Shown here piece after piece: positions 17,882-64,000 of a DNA stretch of 64,000 bases. Each line of letters starts with the position of its first letter. Within the stretch, counting starts at the first letter, position 1. Source of the stretch: Thozetella sp. PMI_491 (Eukaryota; Ascomycota; Sordariomycetes; Chaetosphaeriales; Chaetosphaeriaceae); contig MU270032.1 in the NCBI GenBank assembly GCA_021432635.1, positions 1 through 64,000 on the forward strand. The letters are read 5' to 3'. A program made the translations under genes and the position numbers. The notes below the pieces were generated by a model, which was not told where the DNA came from, did not search any database, and saw only the letters and a program-made list of their open reading frames with translations.

Positions 17882-19265
17882 GGTTTTAAGACAGATCATC
17901 TCCCGCAATGGCTAGCTCGATGGAACTAGACGGCTATGTACCTTGTTGCTGATTTCCAGTGGGAAAGATACTGACGACTAAAGAGTTAGCGCCGCTCATT
18001 GTGGCAAACGTCTCATACATAGGATTTGACTAAATTCCTGTTCCTTCGATTCTACAAAAGCTCTCTGAACGCGACCGACTGCTCTAAGAAGATCACGCTT
18101 CCTATGCTTAGTGCGTTGTGTGTCTAGGTCGATCACGCAGTCCGAAATGTGTTTTGATGAGGTGATTGTTTTCTTTGGGAAGAGTTTGAGTATTGGCTAT
18201 ACCCTAGTACTAGTTCTTCTGGCTGATAGAAGGACAAGCTGTGCAAGTAGGTGTATTGTTTATCGAAAAGAATGCAGTGCGATAGTTACATGTATGCTCG
18301 GTAGTAGCTGGGACGTGCCTCAAACTATATCCACAAGCGGACTCTGGACCTGCATGTTACAGTACAAATAACTATAACTATCAGGCGATTAGACCTGTTG
18401 TTCCTGATACTTGGCCTAGCCGCATTAGTGTTAGCTGGCCCGATTGATGGGAGACAAGGCCCACTCCAAGGTGCTGTTGGCACTAACCTACCATGGTAGA
18501 GGTAGAGAGTTTCATCTCAGGAGACTACGCTAGAATCTGCTTCTCCATCAATATCAGACTCTAGCCTAACGTCCTATCTTCGGATGGTTACATGTTGATA
18601 CTAGATTTCAGCGTTATTAACGACTAGGCCCGATACCTTTCGTCTTTGTTTTCCTTATTGATAGGTAAAATTCCTATCAGACTCGATCTTGGAAAGGGAG
18701 CCGCAGTGTAAATCAGCTGAGAAAAAAGGAAAATGCGGCAAGCTTTTGAGCTTAAAGGTACACATAACTGGATCCGATGTATTTAGCTAGATTGCATGAG
18801 CAAGGCGTTCCCTTTCAATGAGCTGTTCTCATGTTTCGAGAACAGCTAGCTACAGCTAGGCTGAAACTTAGGCCTCTGCTATGGCCAGGCGCGATTCCTC
18901 TTATGTCCAAATTTGAAATCGCACCTGACCGCAAAAATCTATATAGTCCAACAAGGAAAAGGATGATAAGATATAATTTGTGTTACTACTGGCTTCGTTG
19001 GTGGCTAAAACAGATGACATCTGCTGATGCGACGAGAAAGCTATATGGGTGCTATGTGGGCTCCATCAGCTGTCAGTGATTGTCACCGCCACCTTTCCCT
19101 TTAGCCAATTTTGTGTATGATTTTCATCTCCTCGATGTACTCTTATGTGCGATACTAGATGCTGCTTCGCACCTAGACTGGCTACTGTCGCGATTACGGC
19201 ATGCAGAGACAGTAACTCTGGCGTATCACGCGAGCCGAGCTTCCCAGAAACTTTCATGAGATAGA
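17882..19265. other. Intergenic, gene-poor and A/T-rich
   Basis: About 1.4 kb with many short stops in all frames and no recognisable protein. Looks like decayed sequence plus the promoter of the next gene. No terminal inverted repeats were seen. Confidence 0.55.
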
Positions 19266-20591
19266 ATGACCAAATTTGACAATACTCACCAGACACGGAA
19301 AATAGAGGAAAACGACTCTATGTACATTACAGCTTCAACTACCGCTGCCATCCTGGAAGCGCGTCAAGCACAACAGTCTATACAGGAGCTGCAGGCGTCC
19401 ATTCAACAACTCCAGCAAAGTATTGTGACACTCGATAGGTCCGCCAACAGTGCGATAGCGAGTGTACGTTCTACAGCCGACGCGAGACTCCGTGATGTGG
19501 ATTCCAGTGCTGCTTCGGCTATTGCCAGCGTTCAGGCGGCCGCGTCTTCTGCGGCGAAAACGGTACCGGCCATTACTGCCACAGCCCTGGTGACAGCACC
19601 GGCTATTACCGTCACCGCCCTAGAAACAGCACCGGCCATCACCGTCACCGCCCTGGAAACAGCACCAGCCGTCACCATCACAGAGTCGGAAACAGCAGCT
19701 GCCATAACCATTACGGAGGTGGGAACAATAGCTACTATCACTGTCACGGCCTTAAAAACAGCGCCTGCTATCACAGTCACAGCATCGGTGACGGCACCCA
19801 CCATTACAATTACCGCTTTAGAAACGGCAGACGCAAGCACCATTACAGCCGTGGTAACAGCTCCAGCGACTACCATCACGGCCTTGAAGCCGTCACCCGC
19901 TGTAACAGTCACGGCGGTAGGAGAGGCACCACCGCCCGCCGCCACCGTCACGGCCTCTGCAGTAGTGGCAACGGCCACTGTCACAAGCTTTGCAACAGTG
20001 ACCGAAACTGTCACAATTGACAACGTTTCCCCCAAGAGAGTTTCTCCATCTTCTCTAACCATGGTATCGCCAGTAGAGAGCGATGCTACAGGCCCTGATC
20101 AGGTATGTATATTTGGTCTTCGGCCTGCAAGGATTGCCTGGGAACTGACTCAAGTATTTGAACTCTTTCAGTCGTCTGATTCACAGCCATCGGTCGATTC
20201 CGGCACGTCCAACACTCCTGTCAACGCCGTGGCGATTGTAGGATTTATTGTGGGCGTGATAGGACTGATTGCGCTGGGGTTGGCTCTTTGGAGTACGTAT
20301 CGGCGACGAAGTCGGAGCTCCACGATGGATTCCTCGAAGATCGGAAACGTTTCGAGACCATCTAGTCCTCAACAAGGCTACAGAGACACGAAGGAAAAGT
20401 GGCGGACAGAGTCTGAAACGTCGCCGAAAGAAAGAAAGTTTATGCCCTTCAGCCTATGGCCTAGTGGGTGGCGACGAACCAGTGATCGCCTATCATTCCA
20501 AGATATCGGACTCCCGTCTATGTTTATCATGAAGGCAACAAAGGGGGCGGGGCCGACGGATAGCATCAAGGGAAGAAGGGAGGGCAGGTAG
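19266..20591 (+). CDS. Membrane protein with long Thr-x-Thr repeat ectodomain
   Basis: No known family recognised. Residues 40-100 form a heptad-like, Gln/Ala-rich helix (SIQELQASIQQLQQSIVTLD). Residues about 100-250 are a degenerate 11-residue repeat of the pattern (A)PAITVTALETA with T-x-T at nearly every unit, some 13 units. After KRVSPSSLTMVSP there is a likely 69-base intron (about 20103-20171, gtatgt…ttcag) that is a multiple of three. Next come a Ser-rich hinge, one membrane helix (VAIVGFIVGVIGLIALGLALW), a stop-transfer YRRRSRSS and a charged cytosolic tail, arranged as in fungal Mid2/WSC-type surface proteins. No signal peptide is visible at ATG 19266 or at ATG 19320, so an unrecognised 5' exon is possible. 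Confidence 0.6.
   Translation: MTKFDNTHQTRKIEENDSMYITASTTAAILEARQAQQSIQELQASIQQLQQSIVTLDRSANSAIASVRSTADARLRDVDSSAASAIASVQAAASSAAKTVPAITATALVTAPAITVTALETAPAITVTALETAPAVTITESETAAAITITEVGTIATITVTALKTAPAITVTASVTAPTITITALETADASTITAVVTAPATTITALKPSPAVTVTAVGEAPPPAATVTASAVVATATVTSFATVTETVTIDNVSPKRVSPSSLTMVSPVESDATGPDQVCIFGLRPARIAWELTQVFELFQSSDSQPSVDSGTSNTPVNAVAIVGFIVGVIGLIALGLALWSTYRRRSRSSTMDSSKIGNVSRPSSPQQGYRDTKEKWRTESETSPKERKFMPFSLWPSGWRRTSDRLSFQDIGLPSMFIMKATKGAGPTDSIKGRREGR
19560..20025 (+). repeat. Degenerate 33-base tandem repeat encoding TVTALETAPAI
   Basis: Protein-level 11-residue units (ITVTALETAPA, VTITESETAAA, ITITEVGTIAT, ITVTALKTAPA and so on). DNA units have diverged at third positions, so selection on the peptide pattern seems likely. 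Confidence 0.75.
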
Positions 20592-58850: not shown

Positions 58851-61800
58851 TTATTCTTCCTCGGCATCACCTCTCTGTATTTCTTCCCACCGCTCTTGCC
58901 TTCCAGCCCACGCTGCACGCCTTTTGTTGAATGATAGACTCAATCTTTTCTTTTCAAATTTTACAATCTGTACAATTCTCGATAGCTGAGGTCGACTGCT
59001 GTTATCTGGAAGCTGACTGCACGCTGTTTTAGAGGCATTAGTTGCTTGCGTGACATCTTGGGAAGTCAATTTCGCCTGAAGCATAGGCATGGAAGGTGGG
59101 TTAGGTGGCATAGAGTGGGCCTTCAGCCACTGCAGCACACGACTTAGTGATTCGTGCAGATCCGTATTGCTCATCTTAAGCGGCATTAATCGGGGAGATA
59201 GTAGCTGCAGAAATTCCACAGATCTAACTTCCTGTGCATTGGTGTTTGGGTCCTGCGCAAGATTCTCAAGCGGCCGTAGAAACTCCATCACCTGCTGCTC
59301 TAAAGTTTCGATTTGCCGAGCATCTACAGCTTCGATGTGTCTCGTAGAGCATAATTCGATAAGAAATATGTCCCAGGAAACTAAGGCTGCGTGTTTATCC
59401 AAGTTTGATGTTGTTCCAGTCACGGCTTCGAGTAGAGCTTGCCCAAGACCCGGAAGAGCAGGCATCCGTAGACGTAAAGTAAAGGTTGAGTTGAGTAGCC
59501 CCAACCAGAATTTGAGAAAGTCTCGGAGTGCGTCATGGGTGCTAGTGGCAAGCTCGTCTGCGAGATAGGTTTTAAAAGAGTATATAATAGACACACATAA
59601 GAATCCGAGAGATTTGGTTTGCTGGAGGAGCTCCGGATGTCGATCTGTTGCCACTAACCACCGGAAACTATTATCGCAGTTTTGCGTTTCGTCGACCCAA
59701 GTTGCGGCATCGGAGCCATAGTTATCAAGGAGCAGGATGGCCGACCAGTGCGTGTCTGAAGTTGCCTTATGATACCCCATTTGGGCGTAGGAATCGGCGA
59801 GGCACCAGTGCTTGCTAAGCGTCATGTCGAACTCTCTGAGGCACGCAGTTGGGATGGGGTCCTGCTGCTTCTCACTCAACTGCGCATACCTCAATCCAGA
59901 GTACATGCATTGCCAAACCAAATTCCCCTGTCGTTGTGCAACTTGCATAGGTGAGTGGCTCTTGGCCATCATAATGCAAGAGAAGAAGAGGGCATGATAC
60001 GGATTATGTTGACTCCAGGACTTGATCTCAGCCCACACGCCCTGTTCATCCAAGAACTCGGCAACAGTTCTGTGTAAGAACTCGATATGCGGCCGGACAA
60101 TTGTCGTGTCTCCTATCAGATGTTCTATCATGGCCTTAGGTCGGCGTCGGTACTTTCTTTTCTGGAGCTCTAGGAGCCCACAGCACCGACTTCGGATGCG
60201 CCTGTCGATTTCGTCCAGTCTTCTCTGTTCCGCTTTACGAGTCATTTTCTCGAACTTTGCCTCTCGGACAGTCGTCCAGTCTTCTTCTGCGAATGATAAC
60301 TGGATTGCCAGAAGCGGCTGATTCCGTATGCCTTGTTCTACTGCTCGACTTCTCGCGTATACCTGGAATATGTTTGACGCTTGCTCGCGGTAGTTGATAG
60401 GTATTCTTCTCAGCATGTGTGCGTATAGATCGGCCAGATCGCTAGGCAGCTCTTCGAGTCGCGCACGTAACTCGCTGATCTTGTCGCCATCCTGAAGCCC
60501 GACCCGAACAGACTTGACGACAAGAGCGATCCAGAGAAATATTCCCTGTGATTTCGCTACAAGCTCATCGAGAAGCCCGAACCACTCAAGGCCCCCACGC
60601 TTAACGAGTGTCTTTCCAATCATGGATTCACAGTACTGATGCATGTCGTCCCAAGTAAGGTCGTGTAGTCGGAGGCCGGGGGCGGAGGCAAAGAAATCTG
60701 TGCAGGATGGAATAGGCCGGCTGGATACGACAAACTTGACGTTGGATGACGCTGCGCTTGCGAGGAGCTCCAATAACTCAAGATAGTCTCCTTCATATTC
60801 GTCTATCCCGTCGATAAGGAAGAAGAATCGGTGCGATGGGCTTGCCTGCCCCGCTAGCCGCCGAAACCAACGCTTCAAGTCAGGAAGGGTGGGTTCTCCA
60901 ATCACTGGAGAAAGCGAGTTGGCCGCTTCTTTGCATAGTTCTTGGAACACTGCAGGGATCAGCTTGGGCTGACGCTCGAGAATGTCGTGTAACAGGGATC
61001 TTAGAAGGCCTTCTTGGCGTTTTTGCAGCGGAGTACCGAGATTCCAAAAGAAGAACGACGCGCAAACCAGCGAATCTCCTTTGGCCCACTTCTCGAGATG
61101 AGCCCAAGTTGTTGGATCCTGCCATACGTATTTCATCAAAGTCGACTTTCCAGATCCAGCTTTTCCATTGATCCAATAGAAGTCGCCGCAATTTTCGAGC
61201 CATTGGGGAAAGTTGGACCAAGGCTTGGCCAGCTGACTCGGCTTCTGGAAGATCCAGCGAAACGTAGCATAATGGGCCTCCTGAATGTCGTCCATCCGCG
61301 TCTTGATGTGACGAAAGTAAATATTATCGAGAATCTGGTGCTGGAGCTCATCAAAACGTAAAGATCCTAGGCAAGCTTGCAATTTGTTATCACTCTGGTG
61401 GCTGCTGATCTGTAGAACACCTTGTTCGAAATCACGGGAGTTGAGCGTTGTGGATGATGACTGTGGATGAATAGTTCTTGTCTCCCCGGTAGTCAGAGTC
61501 AAGATGGCGGCGATTACTTCACCGTGGTTTCTCTTGATAAGATCTAGGCTGTCGTCAACCCTTCTCCTGAGTTCCTTGGCCTCCCCTTGGTTGAATGCAA
61601 GGACTTCCACAATTTTGGTGTCGCGACGCCTCACGTTCTCCAACTCGTCGGACTGGCGGCCTAGGTAAACGTCAATCTTGGAGTTTAAGCAAGAAAGAAC
61701 TCTGAGAACAAGTTGCTCGCGGTAGATCGACAGCCGCGCTCTCAAGTCTTCGATATGGTCCGCTTTCCAGATTGTACGAAGAGCCTGTAGGAAGTTGGTC

Positions 61801-62223
61801 CACTTGCATCGCTCTACCGTCTTTCCTTTTCTTCCCAGCTCTTCAGCTTCTGCTCTGTCTATCTTCTTGGGCCTCAGAGACCGTAGAGCGTCGGCGAGAT
61901 TCCGAGCGATCTCGCTGCACTCGCCTAGCATCCTGTCAAGTGCCTAAGGGTTGATTAGCGCGCAAGTTTACATGGAGAGTGGAATGTCAATCCCTGACCA
62001 TCTCATCCTCTGCCGAGGGACCTAGTGGGCCATGCGCCCGTCGCGATCGGCTTTTTAAAGTCGCATTCAGCTTCAGAAGGTCATTTGTCGTTTGCTCGAA
62101 AGCCTCGTATGTCAGCGGTTGGCCAACTTGGCGAATGTCGCGGTAGTCCTTGAGAAGACCAGTCGTATAGTCAACAAACTGGACGACAGCCGCCGCGATA
62201 CTCAGGGCACTGAAAGGATCCAT
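58851..62223 (-). CDS. NACHT-type NLR (STAND) protein
   Basis: 1105 residues from exons 62223-61999 and 61943-58851 (intron 55 bases with a gtcagg donor). The N-terminus MDPFSALSIAAAVVQFVDYT is the start typical of the fungal N-terminal STAND (HeLo-like) domain, with helical sequence to about residue 300. The NACHT core follows: P-loop GKAGSGKSTLMKY near residue 335, Walker B RFFFLIDGIDEYEGD near 451, then KFVVSSRPIP (sensor 1), LHDLTWDDMHQYCESMI and the winged-helix region. The C-terminus (about 400 residues) is helical and ends basic, KRRAAWAGRQERWEEI. No ankyrin, WD40 or TPR repeats are obvious, so the sensor region is divergent or lost. Such proteins oligomerise on sensing ligand and control cell death or conspecific recognition. 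It is divergent from a second gene at the window end. Confidence 0.88.
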
Positions 62224-63487
62224 TCTTGAGGCGCCAAACGGGCTGCTAAGTATGAGGGCGTTGTTGAAAAGCCTGTGAATGGGGAAAATGTTGGTGATGA
62301 TTGAAGGTGGTAGGTGATAATGCGGCTGGGCTGCGCCACCGCCTCCTCAGCTGCAGATAACGTGACAGGCTGCCTGGTCTCTTTTTGCTCACCAGCTTCT
62401 CACCAGCTGTAACATCCCTGCTATTAATGCGCCAAGGCATTGAGAAAGGTTCAGCCTTCTACGCCCAGCAGCCAGAGAATGGCGGGTTGCTGGACGCGAT
62501 AAACCTCGGCCCGTGTGATTAGATTCCAACCGGCAGAAAGTGGTGTATGCTACACTGGCTTCAGAAGCATCAGAGCTAGTGACATTCATGGTGCTTCAAC
62601 TTGATGCTAAGAGTTGAAATGGCTTATATTTAATATAATATACATGTCACACGTTTATAATCTTTCCATCAGCCACCTCTTGTCTTCCTATAGTAAGATC
62701 TTTTATTTGGCCCTAGATATGACTCTTTACATGATAATTCTTAAGGCTCCAGATAGACTTAGATGCCATTTTAGAGTCAAGAAGCATGTTCACCTTTCGT
62801 CAAAGGTCTAGTTAACCGTTAGAGTACTAGCCTACAGATCATATTTCTATCCTTATACCCCTTCCCTATAGCATAGCTATAGTAACTGGTATATATATAA
62901 TAGGAAAAGGGAAATATTTCACCTATAAATTAATAAAACGCCTTTATTGTGACGTGTGGAGGCCGGCCTGCCAGTGGGTGGGGGTCCTACATTAGGGAGC
63001 AAGCGATTCGCAGCCGAACGGCTGGCGATCTTGCTCCTACAGAGATCAACTTATGTTACAAAATCACCATTTATACGTCATATATCAGTGCCCCCACCTT
63101 TTTTCCGCTAGTTGCCCAAGCAGTGCAGTGTGTAAAGTGGCTAATACGAGAGCGATGTGCGTGGTATTACATTTTTAAACAAAGCTTAACTTATATTTAA
63201 TAGAGTATTAACAAATAAGTAGGCTACCTTGCATCTCCCAGTGCTGACATCGAACTTGGCACAAGCACAAGGTGGACTCCGTGGTGCCTTTTAAACTTGA
63301 TTAGGTAAGCTGCAGGGGATAATCAAGCCTGAGGCTGCTGCCTGCGCCACCTCCCCAAACATCGCTGACGTCCTGGTCGGCTGCGACACGCCTATCGAAT
63401 AATCCATATTCTCCCTATAAGGCCAAGAGACTAGCGCCTTGGCGACGTCTTTCTCTTACACCTCTCTTGTACAAATCTCTATTCTTG
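62224..63487. promoter_or_regulatory. 1.26 kb divergent spacer of NLR and partner gene
   Basis: Non-coding region between divergent genes. It contains A/T-rich tracts (62600-62940) and an imperfect hairpin at 62994-63038 with ggagcaag / cttgctcc outer arms. I find no regulatory motif that can be named. Confidence 0.5.
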
Positions 63488-64000
63488 ATGGATGCTCCTT
63501 CTCCTACGCCTCGGAGGCCACCGCCTCCTCCAGCTAAACCGAAGGCGCTGACTGGAATCCCCGTAGCATTGAGGCCAAGTGCGCTTGCTACGCCACCTCT
63601 CCCGCCCAGACCATCGGCTCTGGCATCCTCTCCCGATCGCGGTGATACAGATGCGCCTCGGGGTAGCAATGAAACGTCATCGCCCGCTAGTTTCATTCTA
63701 GGGGCGATTCGAGGTAGTGCTGAAAAAACCGGGGCGGCTTTTGCCGTGGCGGGAGCCGCAGTTCAGAAAGGGGCCATCAGCACAGCGGGTGTATTGAAAG
63801 ATGGCTGGGACCACACTTCCAATGCTGTCGGCGAGACCAGCGTGGGGGTGCTGCTCACGCACGTTCAAGGTGACATACGGGATACTGGGCGTAAGCTGTC
63901 TCAAAAGGACAGCCTGTGCGAACAATGCGCCCGATTCCCGGTCTCGGCATGCTGGGTCGGCGGGTCAGGCGCAGAGACGCTGGAATGGAGCACGCCTCTT
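63488..64000 (+). CDS. 5' part of a gene: Pro-rich, Ala/Gly segment, HET-like Cys motif
   Basis: Open for all 171 codons from ATG 63488 to the end, so the 3' end is missing. Residues 1-35 are Pro/Ala-rich (PTPRRPPPPPAKPKALTG). Residues about 68-100 are Ala/Gly-rich with spaced small residues (FILGAIRGSAEKTGAAFAVA, then GAAVQKGAISTAGVLKDGWD), reading like an amphipathic or glycine-zipper helix. Residues about 143-155 are LCEQCARFPVSACW, then TLEWSTPL: a C-x2-C...C layout that resembles the start of fungal HET-domain proteins, where a Trp/Leu motif and another Cys pair follow. The HET domain itself lies outside the window. Homology is tentative; the whole could be a novel effector of the adjacent NLR. 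Confidence 0.45.
   Translation, partial: MDAPSPTPRRPPPPPAKPKALTGIPVALRPSALATPPLPPRPSALASSPDRGDTDAPRGSNETSSPASFILGAIRGSAEKTGAAFAVAGAAVQKGAISTAGVLKDGWDHTSNAVGETSVGVLLTHVQGDIRDTGRKLSQKDSLCEQCARFPVSACWVGGSGAETLEWSTPL

Follow-up and report, generated by a model that had tools for sequence, protein, structure and literature searches.

Results

An NLR gene and a HET gene at the window edge

The window analyzed here, the first 64,000 nucleotides of contig MU270032.1 of Thozetella sp. PMI_491, ends on two genes placed back to back: an NLR gene on the reverse strand and, on the forward strand, a HET-domain gene that runs over the edge (Table 1). The window is positions 1-64000 of this contig, which we call C18 and which is 1,161,668 bp long, which allowed the partner gene to be followed beyond the edge. 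The genome as a whole comprises 72.3 Mb in 157 contigs, numbered likewise, and all comparisons with kin are between paralogs inside this one genome.

The NLR gene occupies 58851-62223(-) and is intact, encoding exactly the 1105 residues given for it in an earlier, sequence-only reading of this DNA once its 55-nt intron is removed; five other donors (GT or GC) are also in frame and yield shorter proteins. In Pfam searches exon 2 matches NPHP3_N (E 1.1e-23, 84.7 bits), NACHT (E 2.9e-10, 40.7 bits) and DUF7791 (E 4.7e-25), all above cut-off, and the P-loop and Walker B motif are intact, as had been claimed, at residues 335 and 449. The fungal STAND N-terminus that was also proposed survives as a weak likeness, the joined exons matching SesA with E 0.04 and 14.5 bits, short of the cut-off (26.3), and nothing in the ~317 residues ahead of NPHP3_N reaches a domain cut-off in Pfam. 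C-terminal to NACHT, Pfam finds DUF7791 only, with no WD40, ANK or TPR repeats and no recognized repeat in the last ~370 residues, and the closest paralog, on C10, is alike. The domain order is identical to that of the fungal NPHP3_N/NACHT-DUF7791 NLRs, and nothing past ordinary divergence from them was seen in this protein. A solved-structure search with exon 2 gave no match (best E 0.67), viral contigs likewise gave none, and among bacterial and archaeal genome contigs five pattern matches included no relative.

The partner gene is also intact, with two exons encoding a complete protein of 980 residues. The sequence-only reading had placed a divergent gene with a HET-like start at 63488, and full translation shows a HET-domain protein indeed: PF06985 matches residues 440-594 over its full profile, 1-146 (E 1.2e-26; 94.2 bits, cut-off 22.5), and the core motifs YVALSYTWG, WVDALCKLQ and RGWTFQE are all there, with a PSWSW motif C-terminal to the domain at residue 750. 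The Pro-rich stretch, the Ala/Gly-rich stretch (residues 67-125) and the C-x2-C...C-W motif described in the first 171 codons are all seen, and Pfam gives no family for these 171 residues at E up to 1. HeLo/MLKL-like helices, also considered in that reading, did not emerge, neither protein having a HeLo match in Pfam at E up to 1, and a solved-structure search with HET exon 1 found nothing (best E 0.97).

A PSWSW-motif domain is reported in TOL and PIN-C of Neurospora crassa (PMC10890737), with which our protein has in common a HET domain followed by PSWSW, and to which it adds a long Pro-rich head and the Ala/Gly stretch ahead of a CxxC/CxxC module. The same combination in TOL and PIN-C (PMC10890737) would fit a het/vic-type allorecognition locus, at which divergent alleles of the HET gene, with or without a contribution from its neighbor, trigger incompatibility; tight linkage of two genes is common among incompatibility partners (PMC12881547). 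However, of the ~100 HET genes in a species just a few govern incompatibility (in Podospora anserina, 5 of 125; PMC10197012), and the likeness to TOL and PIN-C is one of motif and class description. We regard this explanation as very unlikely.

The head of the HET protein and its paralogs

The three nearest long HET paralogs, taken as reading frames, lie at C31:27828-31262, C46:483879-487169 and C2:1185015-1188515; they match the C18 protein at 27-29% over the alignments and are closer to one another (34-52%). All four proteins keep LCxxC, CxxC, NDPL and WPFG ahead of the HET domain.

The Ala/Gly-rich stretch had been taken for a zipper-like, membrane-active segment giving the partner an unusual domain order, and an executor with such a head would be an unusual one. 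The stretch certainly exists, but its two GxxxG/A motifs are not above shuffles (P 0.88), its best 19-residue Kyte-Doolittle hydropathy of 1.28 leaves no transmembrane-grade stretch, and it is poorly aligned and not conserved in the C46 and C2 paralogs, being loosely matched in C31. These three lines speak against a glycine-zipper or transmembrane head, which we find scarcely credible. Single-sequence AlphaFold modeling of the lone 171 residues gave no helix in the segment, a result that is uninformative at a mean predicted local distance difference test score of 39.

The heads ahead of LCxxC are Pro-rich in the HET protein and its paralogs. SH3-ligand-like motifs are above composition shuffles in three of the four members (the C18 partner, P 0.021; C46, P 0.001; C2, P 0.0003) and not clearly so in the C31 head (P 0.081). 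The string PPLPPRP is common to the heads of the C18 and C46 proteins.

Abundance and spacing of HET and NLR genes

First-look searches of the genome returned 440 HET and 294 NPHP3_N candidates, 150 of each being scored; both lists are incomplete and their counts are lower bounds. All 60 DUF7791 candidates were scored, giving 44 matches (one below cut-off) and 43 places after merging. The joined lists hold at least 187 HET-like and at least 193 NLR-like places, and a smaller set at least 173 and at least 180, respectively; all spacing results refer to these listed places. Three NLR matches, at C28:97607, C15:1168123 and C96:125539, lie in open frames of 23,718-26,917 codons, which may be artificial and due to masked or unknown bases.

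In the larger set there are 8 HET-NLR pairs within 5 kb, the C18 pair included, against 5.5 under uniform placement (P 0.19), 10 against 7.5 within 7 kb (P 0.22) and 16 against 10.5 within 10 kb (P 0.07). The smaller set has 8 NLR places with a HET within 5 kb, or 7 without the C18 pair, and when family labels are shuffled its 8 mixed pairs among 17 close ones compare with a mean of 8.5, with 0.69 of shuffles reaching 8. HET-NLR pairing at short range is absent, the counts within 5 kb being about chance. Of the 10 pairs within 7 kb, 2 are arranged divergently, 3 convergently and 5 in tandem.

Weighing a possible functional link between the two genes

Unlikely is the explanation that the two genes form a functional pair, the NLR controlling the adjacent HET protein in trans through a contact other than a shared amyloid motif, for instance one made by the HET protein's Pro-rich head or CxxC module. 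The model for such a pair is NWD2, which controls HET-S in trans. Both genes here are intact, divergent and 1264 bp apart, as this explanation would have it, and the surroundings of some relatives speak in its favor. A decayed NLR stretch is found 6.3 kb (measured between matched stretches) from the C31 HET paralog, with a fatty-acid hydroxylase frame between them, and the C2 paralog lies 6.1 kb from a convergent NPHP3_N NLR of another type, with a frame that looks transporter-like by eye between them; in all, an NLR or NLR remnant lies within 7 kb of two out of the three closest HET paralogs. At least two in three would be expected by chance with a probability of 0.008 at the listed rate, or of 0.03 if that rate is doubled. 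The second figure is the fairer one, because the C2 NLR, found by genome-wide search, is missing from the listed NPHP3_N rows and the listed rate is therefore too low. For any of five NLR kin to lie within 7 kb of any of the three HET kin, the chance is ~0.003 (uniform placement, post hoc).

Furthermore, among 81 matches to NLR residues 427-602 (101 of 101 candidates scored), the C31 remnant ranks third when the NLR itself is counted. In a tree of the C18 NLR, nine relatives and the C31 stretch, drawn from the 43 DUF7791 places, it falls into an unresolved five-row group with C18, C10, C15 and C65 (89/93), and with its position unresolved there it was not taken as sister of the C18 NLR. Over a wider range, HET-NLR pairs within 20 kb number 34 against 20.5 under uniform placement (P 0.004). 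DUF7791 NLRs tend to be near HETs somewhat oftener than other NLRs: within 5, 12 and 20 kb of a HET there are 3, 6 and 9 of the 43 DUF7791 NLRs and 5, 10 and 21 of the 137 others, respectively. This trend was not adopted as a rule for DUF7791 NLRs. Taken together, the 20-kb excess, the neighbors of the HET paralogs, the rank of the C31 remnant and the DUF7791 trend weigh against mere neighborhood, and may point to an association that did not arise by accident. The C31 remnant and the C2 NLR beside HET paralogs are suggestive, a post hoc and faint hint of an older association.

Against a functional pair, adjacency across the genome is at about chance level at 5 kb. Moreover, the closest NLR paralog (C10:651259-654642, 46% over exon 2 residues 2-1018) is divergent from a DUF3433 gene and has no HET neighbor among the listed matches, the nearest on C10 being 19 kb away; the HET protein itself finds no match in C10:641260-660000 at E 1e-3. 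Around the C46 HET paralog there is no NLR among frames of at least 200 residues in 480501-490500, and no match there to the C18 NLR, while the NLRs near the C31 and C2 paralogs are in other orientations, with other genes intervening. A block duplication was rejected for C18:1-83400 and C31:26001-42000, which share no further genes, the HET gene and NLR remnant being the sole matches.

Nor was a common signaling motif found in the two proteins. The NLR N-terminus aligns with the HET C-terminus at a Smith-Waterman score of 30 against a shuffled mean of 29.2 (P 0.37), the NLR start resembles the HET head no more than by chance (P 0.10), and rough regular expressions found no sigma, PP or HRAM-like motif; a shared amyloid-type motif between NLR start and HET end was accordingly discarded. 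In addition, the NLR has a long N-terminal region of its own, and no HET/STAND pairs whose STAND member is without an effector domain turned up in a published search for them (PMC3321046). Because neighbors within 5 kb are at about chance, the closest NLR paralog has no listed HET neighbor and no common signaling motif was found, functional pairing of the NLR with an effector stands unproven, and these numbers do not call for it.

The 20-kb excess can be set beside controls. In that comparison HET-NLR pairs numbered 31 against 17.7 under uniform placement, HET-HET 18 against 8.5, NLR-NLR 9 against 9.2, HET-kinase 12 against 11.2, NLR-kinase 8 against 11.6, HET-P450 12 against 9.0 and NLR-P450 13 against 9.4, with 92 of 105 P450 rows and 114 of 143 kinase rows used. 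HET and NLR genes thus lie within 20 kb of one another ~1.7 times oftener than under uniform placement, which the kinase controls do not, and the label shuffle singles out no mixed pairs (31 mixed of 58 against a mean of 29.0, P 0.36). The regional co-location is at most mild, and the shuffle cannot part it from a general clustering of both families.

Intergenic region and the rest of the window

The ~220-bp repeat between the genes has at least 16 further matches in the genome, some partial, at 75-97% identity; nine copies were aligned, that of the window and eight on C14, C114, C4, C11, C135, C22, C26 and C21, and no clear terminal inverted repeats were seen in it. The stretch beside it is perhaps also repeat-derived. 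Because such repeat-like DNA (62950-63171 and 62553-62932) accounts for about half of the 1264 bp, no tightly conserved promoter common to both genes is evident.

Elsewhere in the window, a 443-residue reading frame at 19260-20591 shows, by eye, many T-A-P-A-I-T-V-T-A-L-E-type repeats and a hydrophobic stretch; its Pfam matches are all below cut-off.

Table 1. Positions of the two genes, the DNA between them and the C31 remnant (window coordinates unless a contig is named)
Feature	Position	Strand	Details
NLR exon 2	58851..61943	(-)	1030 codons + stop; remainder of N-terminal region, NPHP3_N/NACHT, DUF7791, unannotated C-terminus
DUF7791 of NLR	60404-59967	(-)	Pfam, exon 2
Walker B of NLR, FFLIDGIDE	60798..60824	(-)	residue 449; coordinates from hand arithmetic
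NPHP3_N/NACHT of NLR	61217-60717	(-)	Pfam, exon 2
Walker A (P-loop) of NLR, GKAGSGKS	61143..61166	(-)	residue 335; coordinates from hand arithmetic
NLR intron	61944..61998	(-)	55 nt; model yielding 1105 residues
NLR exon 1	61999..62223	(-)	75 codons, begins MDPFSALSIAAAVVQF; start of N-terminal region
Shared intergenic region	62224..63487		1264 bp; AT-rich middle, GC 0.375 at 62600-62999
Stretch with copy elsewhere	62553..62932		77% identical to C28:11291-11661; short match at C28:132611
Dispersed short repeat	62950..63171		~220 bp, inside intergenic region
HET gene, part inside window	63488..64000	(+)	first 171 codons; exon 1 continues to C18:64987
HET gene exon 1	C18:63488-64987	(+)	read past window edge
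HET gene intron	between C18:64987 and 65040	(+)	52 nt, ends ctaactaggattctag
HET gene exon 2	C18:65040-66482	(+)	
Decayed NLR stretch	C31:35946-36434		DUF7791, two stops; near C31 HET paralog

Discussion

It is probable that the C18 NLR and HET genes are two intact members of hugely expanded fungal immune families that are neighbors by happenstance. Given the abundance of both families in this genome, the two genes are most likely adjacent as ordinary neighbors, and most likely ordinary additional members of the known NLR and HET families. The gene structures, domains, intact motifs and genome-wide neighbor frequencies were observed directly, whereas any activity of the proteins, or link between them, is putative. 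The most likely role of the NLR, by analogy with its family, is that of a self-contained STAND switch, in which nucleotide exchange at the NACHT domain would lead to oligomerization and so activate its own N-terminal region of ~300 residues. For the HET protein, the most likely identity is that of a TIR-related cell-death protein in the PSWSW class, whose N-terminal CxxC/CxxC module and Pro-rich head may govern activation or partner binding.

Comparison with known systems highlights both similarities and differences. In het-S/nwd2-type clusters a receptor gene and a gene of a cell-death family are adjacent and divergent (PMC3321046), as they are here, whereas our pair has no shared N- and C-terminal motif and the NLR carries a long N-terminal region (~317 residues) in place of a short one. 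As for linkage, among the paralogs those on C10 and C46 show none in the stretches searched, that on C31 has a remnant of the NLR's broad clade and that on C2 an NLR of another type. In het-B (Bh/Bp) of P. anserina a HET-domain gene also adjoins a putative sensor gene, which encodes a PII-like protein and not an NLR as here, and that arrangement is conserved in 28 of the 31 taxa having both orthologs (PMC10890737).

A narrower proposal is that the four Pro-headed HET proteins with CxxC/CxxC and PSWSW constitute a subfamily repeatedly housed with NLRs, forming a trans-acting receptor-executor pair that dispenses with a shared amyloid motif. Three of the four, the C18 member included, lie within 7 kb of an NLR or remnant, and the one on C31 sits beside a decayed relative from the NLR's broad clade; we nevertheless judge the proposal quite unlikely. 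If true, the pair would be of a kind not found by the 2012 search for split HET/STAND pairs.

If the C18 genes are merely neighbors, the preferred reading, the locus shows how readily chance alone produces "NLR plus executor" pairs where a genome holds hundreds of each, and our analysis supplies the numbers. The mild 20-kb co-location lends at most mild support to defense-island-like regions. Should the subfamily association prove true, it would represent a HET/NLR pair acting in trans, in which HET activation would be testable with two genes, and it would be relevant to the fungal counterpart that has been proposed for bacterial defense islands (PMC10197012).

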